This document shows positions 16,708 through 46,647 of a stretch of DNA of 63,414 bases, piece after piece. Each line of letters starts with the position of its first letter. Position 1 is the first letter of the stretch. The notes below the pieces were generated by a model. The model did no database searches and was not told the DNA's origin. It saw only the letters and a program-made list of their open reading frames with translations. The translations under genes and the position numbers were made by a program. Origin of the DNA: a virus; the IMG/VR virus record IMGVR_UViG_3300045996_000494, positions 1-63,414 of that record, one strand, 5' to 3'.

Positions 16708-18033
16708 TCACCTCAGCGGTAGAGCTTGGCGATAGCGGTACGGGTCCAGATGGTCGTTGGCGAGCGGAGTATCCGGTTGCGGCCCGCCGCCAATAGGCAT
16801 CTCATACACGCCGCGCCGCAGTCCCTTGTCGAGCATCATCTTGCGGTGTTGGTCGGCCAAAGACATGTCAGGCGGAGCGCTCACGCCCATTGCTGCTTGC
16901 ACACCGGGATCGAGCGCGATGGCCTGCGTACGCCGCACCTCGGGCTTGGCTGGAGCTTCTGCGCGCTTCTTGCGGCTGCTCTCAATGGTGCGCTGGAAAA
17001 ACTCCTCGCCCTTCCACTTGACCACGTCCTCCGGCACGACGAACTCGCCGCCGTCGAGCTGAATGGCGCCGGTTGGTCCCTGCGCCGGGATGTCGTCGGT
17101 GATGCGATCACCGGAGGGTGACAGCTCCTCGTCGATCATGCCGCCTTCTGCGTAGCTCTTGCGGAACAGAGGGTTGATCAACCCCCCGAGAGCCGAGCTA
17201 GCCGGCGCTGTCGCCATCGACAAGCCGAGGCCGCCGATCAACCCCAGCGCCGAGCCCCAGCCGCTGCCCTGGCTGCGCTCCGCCTGATTGTACTTGTACT
17301 GGTCGAGAAGCTGGTTGTAGCCGGTTTTCATGGTGTCGGCCGCGGCACCGAGCCCACTCGTACCCAGCGCGCCCCACTGCTGCGGCGTGCCCATGCTGCT
17401 GGAGCCAGACGCTACGCCTGCCGTCTGTGTGCCGCCAGCCAGCGCGCCCTGTCCGCCAGCCAGCTGGTAGCCCTGCGCCGACATCCCCGGGTAGCCGCGG
17501 CCCACAGCGAGCGCCTCAGAGCGCAACGCTCGCGCCGTCGCTTCGGTCTGCTCGCGGGACATGTTGCCAGCGCCGGCACGCGCCGCCGCCTCGGAGATGC
17601 GCGTCCCGAGATCGAGCGCACCTGCACGCGTCTGCGACGGATCGATGCCGAAGCTCTCTAGGCGGTCCTGCGCCGCAGCGCGCGCCACCTTGTACTGGTT
17701 CGACACCTCGGCCATCGCCGCGCCCGAGCGCTGCTGGATGCGGGCCGGAGTGGCGTAGTCCTGTGCTTCCGCGACTAGCTGATCTTCGAGTGGCTGGAAG
17801 GTCTCCTTGTAGCGAGCGCGATCCTCCGCCGCCTGCTCATCGAGCACGTTCTGCCGAGCCAGCGCAGACTCGATAATCTTGTCGCTAGTCTCTTCGGTCT
17901 TGGCGTACTGCTGCCGCGCCCACGCCATCTGCTCCCGCTGCAGTTCGAGCGAGGAGTTAGCAGCCTGCGTTTGCGCCGCGATGATGCCGGAGTAATCCGG
18001 CGGGGGCGGTGCGTAGGATTTCTTGCTCGACAT
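16708..18033 (-). CDS. Internal virion or tail-associated protein (441 aa)
   Basis: The N-terminal half is helical, Gln/Ala-rich with coiled-coil character (QREQMAWARQQYAKTEETSD). A Gly-rich hydrophobic stretch (GSALGLIGGLGLSMATAPAS) in the middle could insert in membranes. The C-terminal part has a conserved-looking segment VQLDGGEFVVPEDVVKWKG-like (IQLDGGEFVVPEDVVKWKG), seen in phage internal and ejection proteins. Its position directly before the hydrolase and giant genes supports a role in the ejection set. Confidence 0.7.
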   Translation of the reverse strand: MSSKKSYAPPPPDYSGIIAAQTQAANSSLELQREQMAWARQQYAKTEETSDKIIESALARQNVLDEQAAEDRARYKETFQPLEDQLVAEAQDYATPARIQQRSGAAMAEVSNQYKVARAAAQDRLESFGIDPSQTRAGALDLGTRISEAAARAGAGNMSREQTEATARALRSEALAVGRGYPGMSAQGYQLAGGQGALAGGTQTAGVASGSSSMGTPQQWGALGTSGLGAAADTMKTGYNQLLDQYKYNQAERSQGSGWGSALGLIGGLGLSMATAPASSALGGLINPLFRKSYAEGGMIDEELSPSGDRITDDIPAQGPTGAIQLDGGEFVVPEDVVKWKGEEFFQRTIESSRKKRAEAPAKPEVRRTQAIALDPGVQAAMGVSAPPDMSLADQHRKMMLDKGLRRGVYEMPIGGGPQPDTPLANDHLDPYRYRQALPLR

Positions 18034-18034
18034 G

Positions 18035-18484
18035 CTAGTGCACCTTGTGGGCGGGCGAGACCCCTAAGAACCGGCAGTCGTCACGATACAGCGAGACGAT
18101 CACCATGTCATCATCGGGGTAGACGCCCTCAATTCCAGCCTCAGCTTTGAACCCAGCTTTGACGGCAAACTGAAAAGTCTCCGCATCGGTTCGCCGAATG
18201 TCACCGAAAATCTTCTTAACCCCAAGCTGGTTGAAGGGGTAGTCGAACACGATGAACAGCAGCCCGCGGCTGATCCATCGGCGGTCCCACGACGTGATGT
18301 GTATCTTGATGCTGCCGCCCGGCCCTGTGTAGTCGCTGAATATCACTCGGCCGAGCAGCTTACCCCGCGAGGTAACTCTGGCGATGCAGTGGTCAACGAG
18401 CGGGTTGAACCGGTACACGTCGTTTGGATGCGGCTTTGTTGCGTCCTGCAGATCGTTGAGCCGGACGCCTTTTATCAGAGCCAC
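18035..18484 (-). CDS. GNAT-like acetyltransferase-fold virion protein (149 aa), GTG start
   Basis: The GTG at 18484 has AAAGGTGG a few bases upstream, which decides it over the longer open frame. The sequence follows the GNAT layout: strands around HCIARVTSRGKLLGRVIFSDY, then RRWISRGLLFIVFDYPFNQ, then VKKIFGDIRRTDAETFQFA and AGFKAEAGIEG. The usual acetyl-CoA pyrophosphate loop (Q/RxxGxG/A) is not clear, so it may be non-catalytic. GNAT-like proteins occur next to podoviral internal core genes. It overlaps the upstream gene by 92 bp in another frame. Confidence 0.72.
   Translation of the reverse strand: MALIKGVRLNDLQDATKPHPNDVYRFNPLVDHCIARVTSRGKLLGRVIFSDYTGPGGSIKIHITSWDRRWISRGLLFIVFDYPFNQLGVKKIFGDIRRTDAETFQFAVKAGFKAEAGIEGVYPDDDMVIVSLYRDDCRFLGVSPAHKVH
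18360..18378. repeat. Dispersed palindromic element inside the GNAT-like gene
   Basis: CTTACCCCGCGAGGTAACT, encoding VTSRGK on the minus strand. This copy mirrors the early-arm form (GAGGTAA) but lies mid-gene. Confidence 0.6.
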
Positions 18485-31684: not shown

Positions 31685-32050
31685 CTACGCTACCAGACGC
31701 TTGATAACTGACATAGTGCCTGAGAACAACGGCACAATCACCCCCGAGGAGACGATGGTCATCCGGGTTTGGTGAAAAAGCTTCTTCTGCCCGCGACCCA
31801 CAGTGTCCGAGCCCTGAAGGTAAATGACCACGGTGGACTGACCGCCATTCGTCACAAACGTGACATCCCCGAGCGCAGTACTTTTCTTGATGGGCACGGA
31901 AGCCGCGGCGTCGAACTGCGAGGGTGACGCCCACCACTCGATCAGCGATGGGACTGGAATTTCATAGGGCATGCCGTTCCACGTGATGGGAACAGACAGG
32001 GTGTGAGGGGCACCCTCGATCACCTCAAAGTCTTGGTTGGGCACGCTCAT
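31685..32050 (-). CDS. Hypothetical structural protein (121 aa)
   Basis: Beta-rich sequence (FEVIEGAPHTLSVPITWNGM, DVTFVTNGGQSTVVIYLQG) resembling immunoglobulin-like or fibre-base domains. The start overlaps the repeat protein's stop by 4 bp. Likely a virion accessory or tail component; function not visible. Confidence 0.65.
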   Translation of the reverse strand: MSVPNQDFEVIEGAPHTLSVPITWNGMPYEIPVPSLIEWWASPSQFDAAASVPIKKSTALGDVTFVTNGGQSTVVIYLQGSDTVGRGQKKLFHQTRMTIVSSGVIVPLFSGTMSVIKRLVA

Positions 32051-33984
32051 TGGAATGAACCTTCTAGCTCGTCTGCGTTCTGGACGCTACCACGAAGCTC
32101 GCCGCCCACCTCCGCCGAGCCCTCCAGGCTGCGGCCAAAGACCGTGCTACCCCGTAGGGTAATCTCGCGGCCACCGAAGATCGCCAGCGCCGGGGTGTGG
32201 AACGGAGACACATCGCTGCCGAAGATCGGCACGGCGTCTGCAACGGTCGTGAGCGTGTAGTGGATCGGCGACCGGGTAAAGACCGGCGTGACGGTCGCGC
32301 CAGTGATCGGGACCGTACCGGCGGTGATCGTGACGGTGCCACTCTGCGACCAAACCGGCGTGACGGTCGCGCCAGTGATCGGGACCACACCGGCAGTGAT
32401 GGGCGGCTCGTACCGCCCGTAGACCATCGTGACAGGCTGGCCGACAATCTCGACCCACCCGGCGATCCACGCTGCAGTGACACCCACTGAGCCTGTGACA
32501 GTCTGCCCAGCAATGGCGACCGTGCCAGCCGTGACGCTGATCGTGTAATTGACGCCACCTCCCGACCACACCGGCATGATGCTGGCGCCGGTGATCGGGA
32601 AAATGTCGGCGTCGACGACAATGCCATAGCCGAAAACCGGGCTGACTGTCTGGCCAACGATGTCGACCGTCCCGGCGGTGATCGTGACCACTCGACCAAA
32701 GACCGGAGTGACTGTCTGCCCGACAATGGCCACGGTCCCGGCAGTGATCGTAACCGTATAGCCGGTGCCCTCGATGGGCGTGACGGTCTGACCGGTGATC
32801 GCGACCGCACCCGCAGTGACGCTAATCGAGCGCCCGTAAGCGGGAGTGACGGTCTGGCCAACGATGGCAACTGTGCCCGCCGTGATCGAGACCGCTCGGG
32901 CGAACACCGGCGTGACCGTCTGCCCGACGATGGCGACCGTGCCAGCGGTGATCGCAACAGCACGTCCGTAGGCGACCGCGACCGTCTGCCCGGCGATGGC
33001 GACCGTGCCAGCCGTGATGCTGGCAGTCCAGCCGCGCGCAGGCGTAACTGTCTGCCCGATGATGTCCACGGTCCCAGCGGTGACCGTGATGCTGTAACCG
33101 CCGCTCTTAACCGGGTTGACCGTCTGCCCGACGATGTCGACCGTGCCAGCGGTGATGCTGATCGTGCGGCCAAAGACGGAGGTGATGGTCTGCCCAGTGA
33201 TCGCGACGGTGCCAGCAGTGATCGCCACCGCGCGCCCGTAAGCTGGCGTGACGGTCTGACCGGTGATCGCGACCGCACCCGCAGTGACGCTAATCGAGCG
33301 CCCGTAGGCAGGCGTCACCGTCTGCCCGGTAATCGCAACCGTGCCAGCTGTGATCGCGACAGCCCGCCCGAACACCGGCGTGACGGTCTGGCCGACGATG
33401 TCGACCGTCCCAGCGGTGATCGAGATCGTATAGGAACTGCCCGAGCCATAGACCGGCGTGACGGTCTGCCCGACGATGTCAACGGTCCCGGCAGTGATGC
33501 TGATCGAGCGCCCGTAAGCGGGCGTGACCGTCTGCCCGACGATGTCAACGGTGCCTGCGGTGATCGCGACCGCACGGCCGTAGGCGGGTGTAACAGTAGC
33601 GCCGGTGATCGCGACCGTACCGGCAGTGATTGTCGGCTCGATGCGCCCGTAGCTCGGAGTGACGGTCTGACCAACAATCCCAACGGTGCCGGCAGTGATC
33701 GCGACGGCGCGCCCGTACGCTGGCGTGACCGTCTGCCCGGTGATCGCAACCGTAGCAGGAGTGATAGCCGGCTCGACGCGCCCGTAGTTCGGAGTGACCG
33801 TCTGCCCGGTGATCGCAACGGTGCCGGCAGTGATCGTAATGTCGTAGCCGACTACCGTGTCCTCTTGGACGAGATAGCCAGAGCCGTCCTCAAGGAGGAT
33901 GCCGAAGCCGTCCTCCTGCAGGATTTTCCCGCCTGCAACCGTTCCTACGAGCGAGATGATCGGGACGCGGACGCGCAAAGCCAT
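32047..33984 (-). CDS. Repeat-rich tail or surface protein (645 aa)
   Basis: After a 48-residue N-terminus (ILQEDGFGILLEDGSGYLVQ), the protein is about 23 tandem copies of a 22-residue unit, typically ITAGTVAIVGQTVTPAYGR plus two or three residues. Each unit predicts two short strands and a Tyr-Gly-Arg turn, which would stack as a rod. The C-terminal 50 residues differ (FGGREITLRGSTVFGRSLEG). It lies among fibre-like genes, so a long fibre or capsid decoration rod is likely. Confidence 0.75.
   Translation of the reverse strand: MALRVRVPIISLVGTVAGGKILQEDGFGILLEDGSGYLVQEDTVVGYDITITAGTVAITGQTVTPNYGRVEPAITPATVAITGQTVTPAYGRAVAITAGTVGIVGQTVTPSYGRIEPTITAGTVAITGATVTPAYGRAVAITAGTVDIVGQTVTPAYGRSISITAGTVDIVGQTVTPVYGSGSSYTISITAGTVDIVGQTVTPVFGRAVAITAGTVAITGQTVTPAYGRSISVTAGAVAITGQTVTPAYGRAVAITAGTVAITGQTITSVFGRTISITAGTVDIVGQTVNPVKSGGYSITVTAGTVDIIGQTVTPARGWTASITAGTVAIAGQTVAVAYGRAVAITAGTVAIVGQTVTPVFARAVSITAGTVAIVGQTVTPAYGRSISVTAGAVAITGQTVTPIEGTGYTVTITAGTVAIVGQTVTPVFGRVVTITAGTVDIVGQTVSPVFGYGIVVDADIFPITGASIMPVWSGGGVNYTISVTAGTVAIAGQTVTGSVGVTAAWIAGWVEIVGQPVTMVYGRYEPPITAGVVPITGATVTPVWSQSGTVTITAGTVPITGATVTPVFTRSPIHYTLTTVADAVPIFGSDVSPFHTPALAIFGGREITLRGSTVFGRSLEGSAEVGGELRGSVQNADELEGSFQ
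32230..33840. repeat. 66-bp tandem repeats within the fibre gene
   Basis: About 23 imperfect direct copies, period usually 66 bp (22 codons). Neighbouring copies share blocks such as CGTGACGGTCTG and CGCCCGTA. Length variants of 69-81 bp occur where extra residues are inserted. Such arrays expand and contract by recombination or slippage. Confidence 0.85.
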
Positions 33985-45026: not shown

Positions 45027-45189
45027 GTGTTGGGGGAGTTTTCAGTGGGATAGGGTGGATTTTGGGAAAATTTTACTTTTTTATTGGGTGTGGTCGGTTG
45101 ACGCAGTTGGTGCTCAAATCGTCGATTGGGTGGCCTAGTAGGAATGAGACCAGGGGGAGGGGGGACGAAAATTTTTTGTTACATTAGGG
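45004..45189. other. G-rich and AT-rich divergent intergenic segment
   Basis: No gene seen. On the plus strand it is G/T-biased with A/T tracts (AAAATTTT, TTTTTT), consistent with promoter upstream DNA for both arms. A plus-strand promoter could not be defined. Confidence 0.4.
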
Positions 45190-45955
45190 TTTGGTAGGCT
45201 GGGTATTTTCAAGACACCCTAAAAGATGCCCGGCCCCCCACCCCGGCGCCTGTCCAGATACCCCCACGGGGGTCCCGACCCTTAATTCCTGCCGCCTATG
45301 GGGAGAGACCGAACCGCAAGTGCCTAGTGCCCCGGTTCAGCCCGAGCTTACTTTACGACGCCCCTTGGCGGGGCGTGCGGCCGGGTGCTACACAGGAAGC
45401 CAAGCGTGACGCGCAACCCACAGGGGCGCGTCGCCCGCAAGGCTATGCGGTACCGAGCCCCACAAGTTGCCTGAGACATGGCGGCGGGTCTCCCCGAAAC
45501 GAAACTCACACCCGTTGATATTGGCAAGGCATCACAGCAGACTACCTAACCGACCCTCGCGTTGGTGCTCGTAACCTCAAAGGCGCATCGCCCCGTATGT
45601 TGCGGCATCTCCAAAGGCTCTCGGCAGGACGTTGAGCGACCATGTGCTCGGAAACACATGGCCCATGACAGGAGCGAGGCACTAGCAACGCCTCCCCACG
45701 CAGCCTACTCGGCGGCGAGTTTAGGACTAGGCGTGAAAATGTCTCTCTTGCCGCGCCTTGCGCTGCATGCTTGGAACGCTGCCTCGCACTGTCCAGGGCT
45801 TGATTGCTTCAGACAGTGCGATGCGTTTCGGGCGGTGCGGTGCCCGACCAAGCGCGGCCCTGTTAGTTTCCCGACCGGGACATGGCGCAAGCTGTGTCCC
45901 GGTTGCTTTGCGTTGGCGTCACGGTCCTGCGGGACTGTGACACGCAACGCAACCG
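45190..45955 (+). ncRNA. Candidate large structured non-coding RNA
   Basis: No open frame here shows coding character. The segment carries many perfect hairpins: 45260-45273 (ACCCCC/GGGGGT), 45358-45376 (ACGCCCC/GGGGCGT), 45640-45661 (CCATGTG/CACATGG), 45786-45819 (GCACTGTC/GACAGTGC), 45874-45903 (ACCGGGACA/TGTCCCGGT) and 45908-45952 (TTGCGTTG plus GTCAC pairing across two internal bulges). The last two stack just before the 169-aa gene. It may be an independent RNA or a long structured leader. Orientation is taken from the downstream gene. Confidence 0.45.
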
Positions 45956-45965
45956 GAGACTGACA

Positions 45966-46475
45966 ATGTCCAAGATGAACCTCTACACCACGGCTGCCGA
46001 GATCGCCGCCGCGACCATTAAGTTCACGAAGGCCAACGTGCGGCTCGAAACCGAGGCACACAAGTTGGCTTGCAGCGTGCTCGCTCACGTCGGCGAGTAT
46101 GGTGACATCCATGTTGTGTCGCGCTTCCTGGCCAGCTTCTCAGAGATGGCGCGTGTCAACGCTGCCCGTGCGTGGTTTGAAGAGTTCGGCCCCGTTACCT
46201 TCGAGGGTAACGAGCCCAAGTTCGTGCGAGGCAAGAAAACCCGCCTCGGCGAGGCGATGGACACGTTCTTCTGGAAGTTCGTGAAAGAAGGCGTGTACAA
46301 GCCGGTCGACCCACAGGCGGAGTTGGTCAAGCTCACCAAGCGCCTAAAGACCGACACCAAGAAAACCGGCACCGATCATTCTGCCATCATCGCCGCTCTG
46401 AGCGCGATTCGCGTCCAGATGCACACCCCTGCTCCGGCGCTGCTCATGATCGAGCACCAGCCGGCAGTTCACTGA
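45966..46475 (+). CDS. Early protein of unknown function (169 aa)
   Basis: The start has CCGGAGACTGACA upstream, 14 bp past a strong hairpin. Helical protein (MNLYTTAAEIAAATIKFTKA, then AHVGEYGDIHVVSRFLASFS, RGKKTRLGEAMDTFFWKFVK). A phage early protein type; biochemical role unknown. It has its own terminator, so it appears to be a separate transcription unit from the genes downstream. Confidence 0.75.
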   Translation: MSKMNLYTTAAEIAAATIKFTKANVRLETEAHKLACSVLAHVGEYGDIHVVSRFLASFSEMARVNAARAWFEEFGPVTFEGNEPKFVRGKKTRLGEAMDTFFWKFVKEGVYKPVDPQAELVKLTKRLKTDTKKTGTDHSAIIAALSAIRVQMHTPAPALLMIEHQPAVH

Positions 46476-46488
46476 GCGTTACTGAATT

Positions 46489-46517
46489 GCGGCGGGCCTA
46501 TTGAGCCCGCCGCGTTT
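46489..46517 (+). terminator. Terminator after the 169-aa gene
   Basis: Stem GCGGCGGGC/GCCCGCCGC with a seven-base loop, followed by GTTTGTCCCTTTG. Strong stem with a weak T tract. Confidence 0.75.
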
Positions 46518-46545
46518 GTCCCTTTGCGCAACAAAATTACACAGG

Positions 46546-46647
46546 TGATGTTTTATACATCAGTTCTGGGTGTGCAAACATCAGTCCTGGGTGTGCAAAC
46601 ATCAATCTTGATGTGCGCACCCCCCAAAGCTGATGTGCCAGACATCA
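46546..46647. repeat. Iteron-like cluster of ACATCA/TGATGT repeats
   Basis: Three direct copies with 21-bp period begin at 46557, 46578 and 46599 (ACATCAGTYCTGGGTGTGCA, the third diverged). Further inverted or direct hexamers lie at 46546, 46609, 46631 and 46642. Seven hexamers in 102 bp beside AT-rich DNA fit an initiator- or repressor-binding array. Confidence 0.75.

Follow-up and report, generated by a model that had tools for sequence, protein, structure and literature searches.

GOLLD is a phage-encoded RNA of ~800 nt with an elaborate fold, part of which is less conserved, and ROOL is an ornate RNA of ~600-700 nt from phages and prophages; neither has an assigned function (PMC12286853). 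A ~770-nt segment on the + strand of the window (the whole stretch of viral DNA analysed here, 63,414 nt, IMG/VR record IMGVR_UViG_3300045996_000494) is similar to GOLLD in size, elaborate fold, phage origin and the presence of a less conserved part, and shares size scale, ornate fold and phage context with ROOL. However, it has no covariance-model match to either. It lies in an early divergent control region, whereas GOLLD lies in a tRNA island, and its conserved part is at the 5' end, whereas that of GOLLD is the 3' region. The location also differs from that of ROOL, and no tRNA or tmRNA gene was found in the window by ARAGORN.

Searches of Rfam at gathering level gave no match in the window or in 25 relatives, other than tRNAs in one relative, and those at permissive E-values gave only chance matches to miRNA, sRNA and lncRNA families. 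GOLLD and ROOL, named as candidates when the segment was read from its sequence, matched neither at gathering level nor at E≤5 on the segment. Hence, though size and phage context are like those of GOLLD and ROOL (PMC12286853), membership in these or any other Rfam family, OLE and group I or II introns included, is highly improbable. Given the lack of a match, the absence of a tRNA neighbourhood and the conserved end opposite to that of GOLLD, the segment probably specifies a large phage RNA of a new kind, representing either a new family or convergence.

Structured early leaders of phages include the processed 5' regions of T7-type early mRNAs and antitermination RNAs of the put and nut type. 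The segment resembles these in lying at the start of an early operon, with hairpins adjoining the first gene, but it stays although the first gene changes, and put or nut sites are roughly ten times shorter.

Location and coding status of the segment

The segment sits in the divergent control region, before the first rightward gene, and its 3' limit is the ribosome-binding site of that gene, which encodes a 169-aa protein. The adjoining genes are probably those that this soil-type phage switches on first. An IMG/VR contig reached via the 169-aa neighbour, designated L001, is 80% identical over 45170-46525 and was used for comparison. The features of the region are as follows.

45177-45189, + strand: candidate extended -10 promoter-like sequence TTGTTACATT (sequence and alignment A7)
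45190-45957, + strand: large structured non-coding segment, the proposed RNA (z -5.1, compensatory pairs, frame-breaking 1-nt indels)
45966-46475, + strand: gene for the 169-aa protein, phrog_1448, function unassigned; adjacent to the RNA here but not constantly paired with it
46489-46513, + strand: perfect 9-bp hairpin GCGGCGGGC-CTATTGA-GCCCGCCGC, followed by GTTTGT (sequence; kept in L001)

The longest start-to-stop ORFs over the segment, in any frame, are of 72, 133 and 135 aa, and neither the ORF list nor the L001 alignment revealed a conserved coding frame in 45190-45955. The alignment contains seven 1-nt gaps and one of 35 nt, and as these gaps would disrupt any reading frame, the segment is not coding. 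In this respect the sequence-only reading was borne out; its boundaries, 45190-45955, were judged good, and its assignment to a divergent control region agrees with a place conserved across the phage clade.

The promoter-like sequence has counterparts in L001 (TAGTATATT) and in another relative, L039 (TGGTATATT), but a sigma-70 scan found no promoter at 45177-45189, which makes the candidate a weak one. Downstream, the 169-aa protein was modelled as helical with a beta-hairpin and had no Pfam match and no fold relative in the PDB; phrog_1448 is common in autographivirids. The 300-nt windows around the hairpin at 46489-46513 rank with the most stable ones in the genome, and from its sequence this hairpin is the probable end of a transcription unit consisting of the RNA and the 169-aa gene.

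Two repeats were also observed. Just 3' of the 169-aa gene, 2.3 copies of the 21-nt tandem repeat ACATCAGTCCTGGGTGTGCAA (46557-46604) lie in AT-rich sequence, itself unusually foldable. On the - strand, 32047-33984 is a 645-aa ORF made of a repeated ITAGTVAITGQTVTPAYGRA-like unit with 66-nt DNA repeats, probably encoding a structural or adhesin-like protein.

Folding and compensatory substitutions

The folding energy of 45190-45955 on the + strand is -350.3 kcal/mol as compared with -306.3 +/- 8.6 for dinucleotide shuffles (z -5.1), and 0 of 20 shuffles were as stable; thus, the energy excess proposed as a check was found. The reverse strand gave z -3.3. When the window was scanned throughout in 300-nt steps of sequence, the 3' third of the segment stood out, 45751-46050 being the second most stable for its G+C, whereas the middle (45301-45750) is unremarkable in local scans, and the energy excess is therefore uneven along the segment.

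A high density of long perfect stems had been claimed for the segment. This holds for stems of at least 7 bp, of which there are four as compared with a mean of 0.98 per 766-nt tile, no other of the 164 tiles reaching four, but not for 6-bp stems, as the five perfect stems of at least 6 bp are not exceptional against a tile mean of 3.1. At least six hairpins with 6-9 bp arms had likewise been reported; beside the five perfect stems, there are several more long ones that include G-U pairs or are interrupted by small loops (45750-45858, 45872-45905 and 45908-45952). The two hairpins said to be stacked directly before the 169-aa gene are real. The stems are listed below.

45358-45376, + strand: hairpin ACGCCCC-TTGGC-GGGGCGT, ATCCCGC...GCGGGAT in L001 by compensatory changes (alignment, consensus fold, stem count)
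45406-45440, + strand: 35-nt insertion with a whole hairpin of at least 7 bp, GACGCGC...GCGCGTC at 45408-45432 (alignment, consensus fold)
45640-45661, + strand: hairpin CCATGTG-ctcggaaa-CACATGG, with GACGCG/CGCGTC instead in L001 and the loop type retained (alignment, consensus fold, stem count)
45750-45858, + strand: long stem with terminal hairpin, GCACTGTC...GACAGTGC, in L001 GCACGATC...GATCGTGC (consensus columns 580-688)
45866-45960, + strand: predicted outer stem GTTTCC/GGAGAC around both 3' hairpins, its 3' strand predicted to include the Shine-Dalgarno GGAG of the 169-aa gene (consensus fold)
45872-45905, + strand: 3' hairpin 1, a 15-bp stem capped by a GCAA tetraloop, with three pairs compensated relative to L001; a terminator-like stem without a T-run (consensus fold)
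45908-45952, + strand: 3' hairpin 2, TTGCGTTG...CAACGCAA, directly before the ribosome-binding site (consensus fold)

The 35-nt insertion is cleanly missing as a unit from L001 and, as judged by the alignment, appears to be a modular gain or loss. An array of intrinsic terminators was considered and rejected, only 45872-45905 being a consensus match, without a real T-run; a terminator scan over the region found 4 as compared with 2.4 expected.

RNAalifold applied to the segment and L001 gave 240 pairs, 24 of them changed on both sides, and all broken pairs belonged to one hairpin, on the 35-nt stretch missing from L001. As RNAalifold favours doubly changed pairs, the test was repeated with single-sequence structures: the window or L001 was folded alone, the structure was projected on the other sequence, and the same substitutions were scattered at random in 500 shuffles. 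Doubly changed pairs numbered 15-19 as compared with 2.6 expected (shuffle maximum 7-9; 0 of 500 shuffles reached the observed number), and broken pairs numbered 22-29, about half the 46-48 in shuffles. Three coding control segments from the same two phages had 0-2 doubly changed pairs, with little or no excess (one of six tests gave a small one, 2 vs 0.3). Covariation in a related phage, another of the checks proposed, was thus present. Being non-coding and having a conserved secondary structure with covariation, the segment displays what generally characterises large structured ncRNAs; the initial observation was confirmed overall and its interpretation as a large structured RNA is supported.

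Conservation across the phage clade

Sequence conservation across the clade is confined to about the first 120 nt, the remainder having nearly no conserved columns.

45190-45310, + strand: clade-wide conserved 5' element (nhmmer profile, three-sequence seed), consensus TTTT..g..cTgt.TaTTT...ACC.AAaAA...C-rich...CCTGTCCA.gTACC...CTA

A profile of the first ~115 nt of the window, L001 and L039 was searched with nhmmer in 80 of 491 terminase relatives and found, at E<0.01, at least 28 loci in round 0 and at least 43 after iteration. The element occurs as one copy per record in at least 43 terminase-relative records, always on the + strand (0 on the - strand); as some of these are near-identical copies, at least about 37 are distinct. 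No consensus fold of the element was found across the clade, so part of its conservation may be that of promoter or operator DNA, and the element could be the beginning of the RNA, a promoter/operator site in the DNA, or serve as both. The idea that GGTACC in this element is a palindrome for kissing loops was discarded, as GGTACC is missing in the window itself and no consistent hairpin forms. In many relatives the element contains repeated GTTAC/GGTAAC, palindromic GGTACC and CCCCC...GGGGGTGGGGG arms, which have the appearance of operators or of an additional hairpin; the window itself lacks most of them.

Two copies of the terminase relatives are found on Bradyrhizobium genome contigs of ~61 kb, where the element is present as well, so the phage group is alphaproteobacterial at least in part. 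In Rhizobium phage RHph_TM27A, a terminase relative (52%), the profile match is weak (E 0.08), and the counterpart (record coordinates 17540-18200) was located from its position and from local similarity to L070; both phages have a foldable gap (z -5.0 in RHph_TM27A, -7.6 in L070) at this divergent junction, and the gene that follows is not the one found in the window. A blastn search against named phages gave no match for the window segment, and two exact-pattern scans of viral contigs gave known or chance matches only. Searching with a covariance model built on the 5' domain (R1) recovered neither RHph_TM27A nor any autographivirid segment; hence, no homology outside the clade is claimed. 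In one relative, three tRNA genes on the - strand (L085:10366-10857) adjoin the element (11150), reminiscent of the GOLLD/ROOL neighbourhood.

Beyond the 5' element, the body is a mosaic between clade pairs. Despite this fast divergence most bodies stay unusually foldable, with a mean z of -2.3 (33 phages) as compared with -0.5 in coding stretches of the same phages. Unusual foldability was absent in L080, L098, L106, L129, L150 and L071; L106 nonetheless covaries with L112 (68% identical), with 17 and 15 doubly changed pairs vs 6.5 and 7.0 expected, the observed counts being reached in 0 of 500 shuffles. The L110/L150 pair leans the same way, and covariation was weak or absent in L104/L108, L079/L106 and L084/L113; pairs near 50% identity are uninformative, probably owing to failure of their alignments. 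In two independent clade pairs, compensatory changes greatly exceed those of shuffles, and this, together with the clade-wide conserved place, speaks strongly against ordinary G+C-rich intergenic sequence or a decayed gene with chance hairpins, an explanation to which the unexceptional 6-bp stems would point and which we consider very unlikely.

As judged by the 44 profile-positive records (43 at E<0.01), several of which stop less than 0.7 kb from the element, too soon to reveal the gene, phrog_1448 lies within 2.5 kb of the element in three. These are the window, L001 and L039, the only ones with phrog_1448 downstream among profile-positive records from the 80 of 491 relatives. The idea that the RNA and the 169-aa protein form a fixed pair was therefore dropped, phrog_1448 being absent after most copies. 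The same variation bears on the main rival to an RNA that acts itself, namely a long 5' leader acting in cis on the early operon, which would take up its fold as the transcript is made and regulate elongation, stability or translation by antitermination, RNase protection or hiding of the Shine-Dalgarno sequence. In favour of a leader, the segment is directly 5' of the first rightward gene, the GGAG ribosome-binding site is predicted to be paired in the last stem, and the terminator-like hairpin after the 169-aa gene indicates that segment and gene are probably one transcript. However, a leader of 770 nt would be very long, the first gene varies among clade members while the element stays, and no counterpart of the Shine-Dalgarno-pairing stem was seen at the end of the L039 region, so a leader is possible but distinctly the less probable of the two.

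In three other settings the regions 5' of phrog_1448 are also long, mostly unannotated and foldable. Among large viral contigs (L002, L041 and L042), the L041/L042 pair has 30-32 doubly changed pairs vs 15.5-16 (0 of 500); the Rhizobium autographivirids Y48/Y1_20 have 21-22 vs 8.5-9.4 (0 of 500), and RHEph02/N37 have 20-23 vs 13. The region of Nostoc phage NMeng1 gave z -6.7. RNA-type tetraloops in these settings number 12 on the + strand and 1 on the - strand. A Pseudomonas putida phage region with phrog_1448 (L010) is not foldable (z +1.3). The left ends of the autographivirids RHEph02, RHph_Y48, RHph_N37 and NMeng1 are thus like the window in having a long foldable non-coding segment upstream of phrog_1448, with most tested pairs covarying, but sequence comparisons linked none of them to the window element; these segments may be analogous to it.

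Covarying hairpins were observed in unannotated left-end gaps near phrog_1448 at L007:1-667, L061:1-617, L009:1100-2043, L062:1630-2580, L063:780-1720 and L004:960-1892. Such gaps in Rhizobium phages and Nostoc phage NMeng1 are of 0.6-1.8 kb, and several loops are GCGAAT/GCTAAT. In viral contigs of 50-127 kb, the structured segments that precede phrog_1448 (type B) share the motif CCGAC..GTCGG-AAAATA-GCATCGGAGAGYCCTATTCAGTTAGGTATACCGTTGC, located as follows.

L041, 2860-3000: type-B motif
L042, 2800-2940: type-B motif
L002, 5440-5545: type-B motif

Nineteen nucleotides of this motif (CCTATTCAGTTAGGTATAC) recur in L058, in non-coding sequence that is otherwise unrelated. A scan with CCTATTCAGTTAGGTA gave chiefly chance matches in coding sequence besides the three type-B contigs.

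Strand and proposed role of the RNA

The consensus energy is -304 on the + strand vs -281 on the - strand, and GNRA/UNCG loops in the clade number 19 vs 11. The clade mean z is the same on both strands (-2.30 and -2.31), and one-sided changes via G-U are as common in the minus-strand consensus (17 vs 16). In the near-perfect stems of the window and L001, G-U pairs slightly outnumber A-C (6 vs 2). An RNA of the + strand is favoured by its co-direction with the genes, its end at the ribosome-binding site, the lower energy and the more numerous tetraloops.

The equal shuffle-corrected energies, the G-U counts and the 5' element without a common fold leave some weight, though rather little, for a DNA-level element, that is, a replication origin and/or control region containing operators, in which inverted repeats would act as cruciforms or single-strand hairpins and not as RNA. 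The equality of the foldability excess on both strands across the clade, the restriction of strong conservation to a palindrome-bearing C-rich 5' element and the location in a divergent control region would all suit such an element. Against it, a branched fold with long-range stems spans 770 nt, and the excess of G-U over A-C and the + lean of RNA-type tetraloops point to RNA, neither of the latter being decisive.

Thus, a trans-acting noncoding RNA seems the likeliest form of the large structured RNA, since the element persists in related phages whatever gene follows, which argues for an RNA acting in its own right. At about even confidence, we consider the segment to be an undescribed, fast-evolving structured RNA of ~770 nt, encoded by the + strand within a rightward early transcript and most likely acting itself. 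An early promoter just before 45190 would drive a transcript comprising the RNA, the 169-aa gene and the terminator-like hairpin at 46489-46513. The RNA would be the first part of this transcript, running from ~45190, close to the conserved 5' element, to the two strong 3' hairpins, where it would probably be cut from, or insulated from, the downstream message. By analogy with GOLLD and ROOL, the released or insulated RNA may then act in trans early in infection as a scaffold, decoy or oligomeric particle. The GTTTCC/GGAGAC pairing of the ribosome-binding site leaves room for an added cis effect in this phage.

The element is present in at least dozens of phage records, including relatives of cultured Rhizobium phages (the RHph_TM27A group), and, with GOLLD and ROOL known but lacking assigned functions, a new RNA of an early control region offers an experimentally tractable system. 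Tentatively, such RNAs could constitute an undescribed family of large, fast-evolving ncRNAs of the start of infection, in which the fold is kept and the sequence replaced, in a clade of ~60-kb phages related to phages of Rhizobium and Bradyrhizobium, with possible parallels in autographivirids and larger phages and a possible role as a defence decoy or takeover scaffold. If so, large RNAs can replace nearly all of their sequence while keeping fold and place, and would be missed by sequence and Rfam searches.
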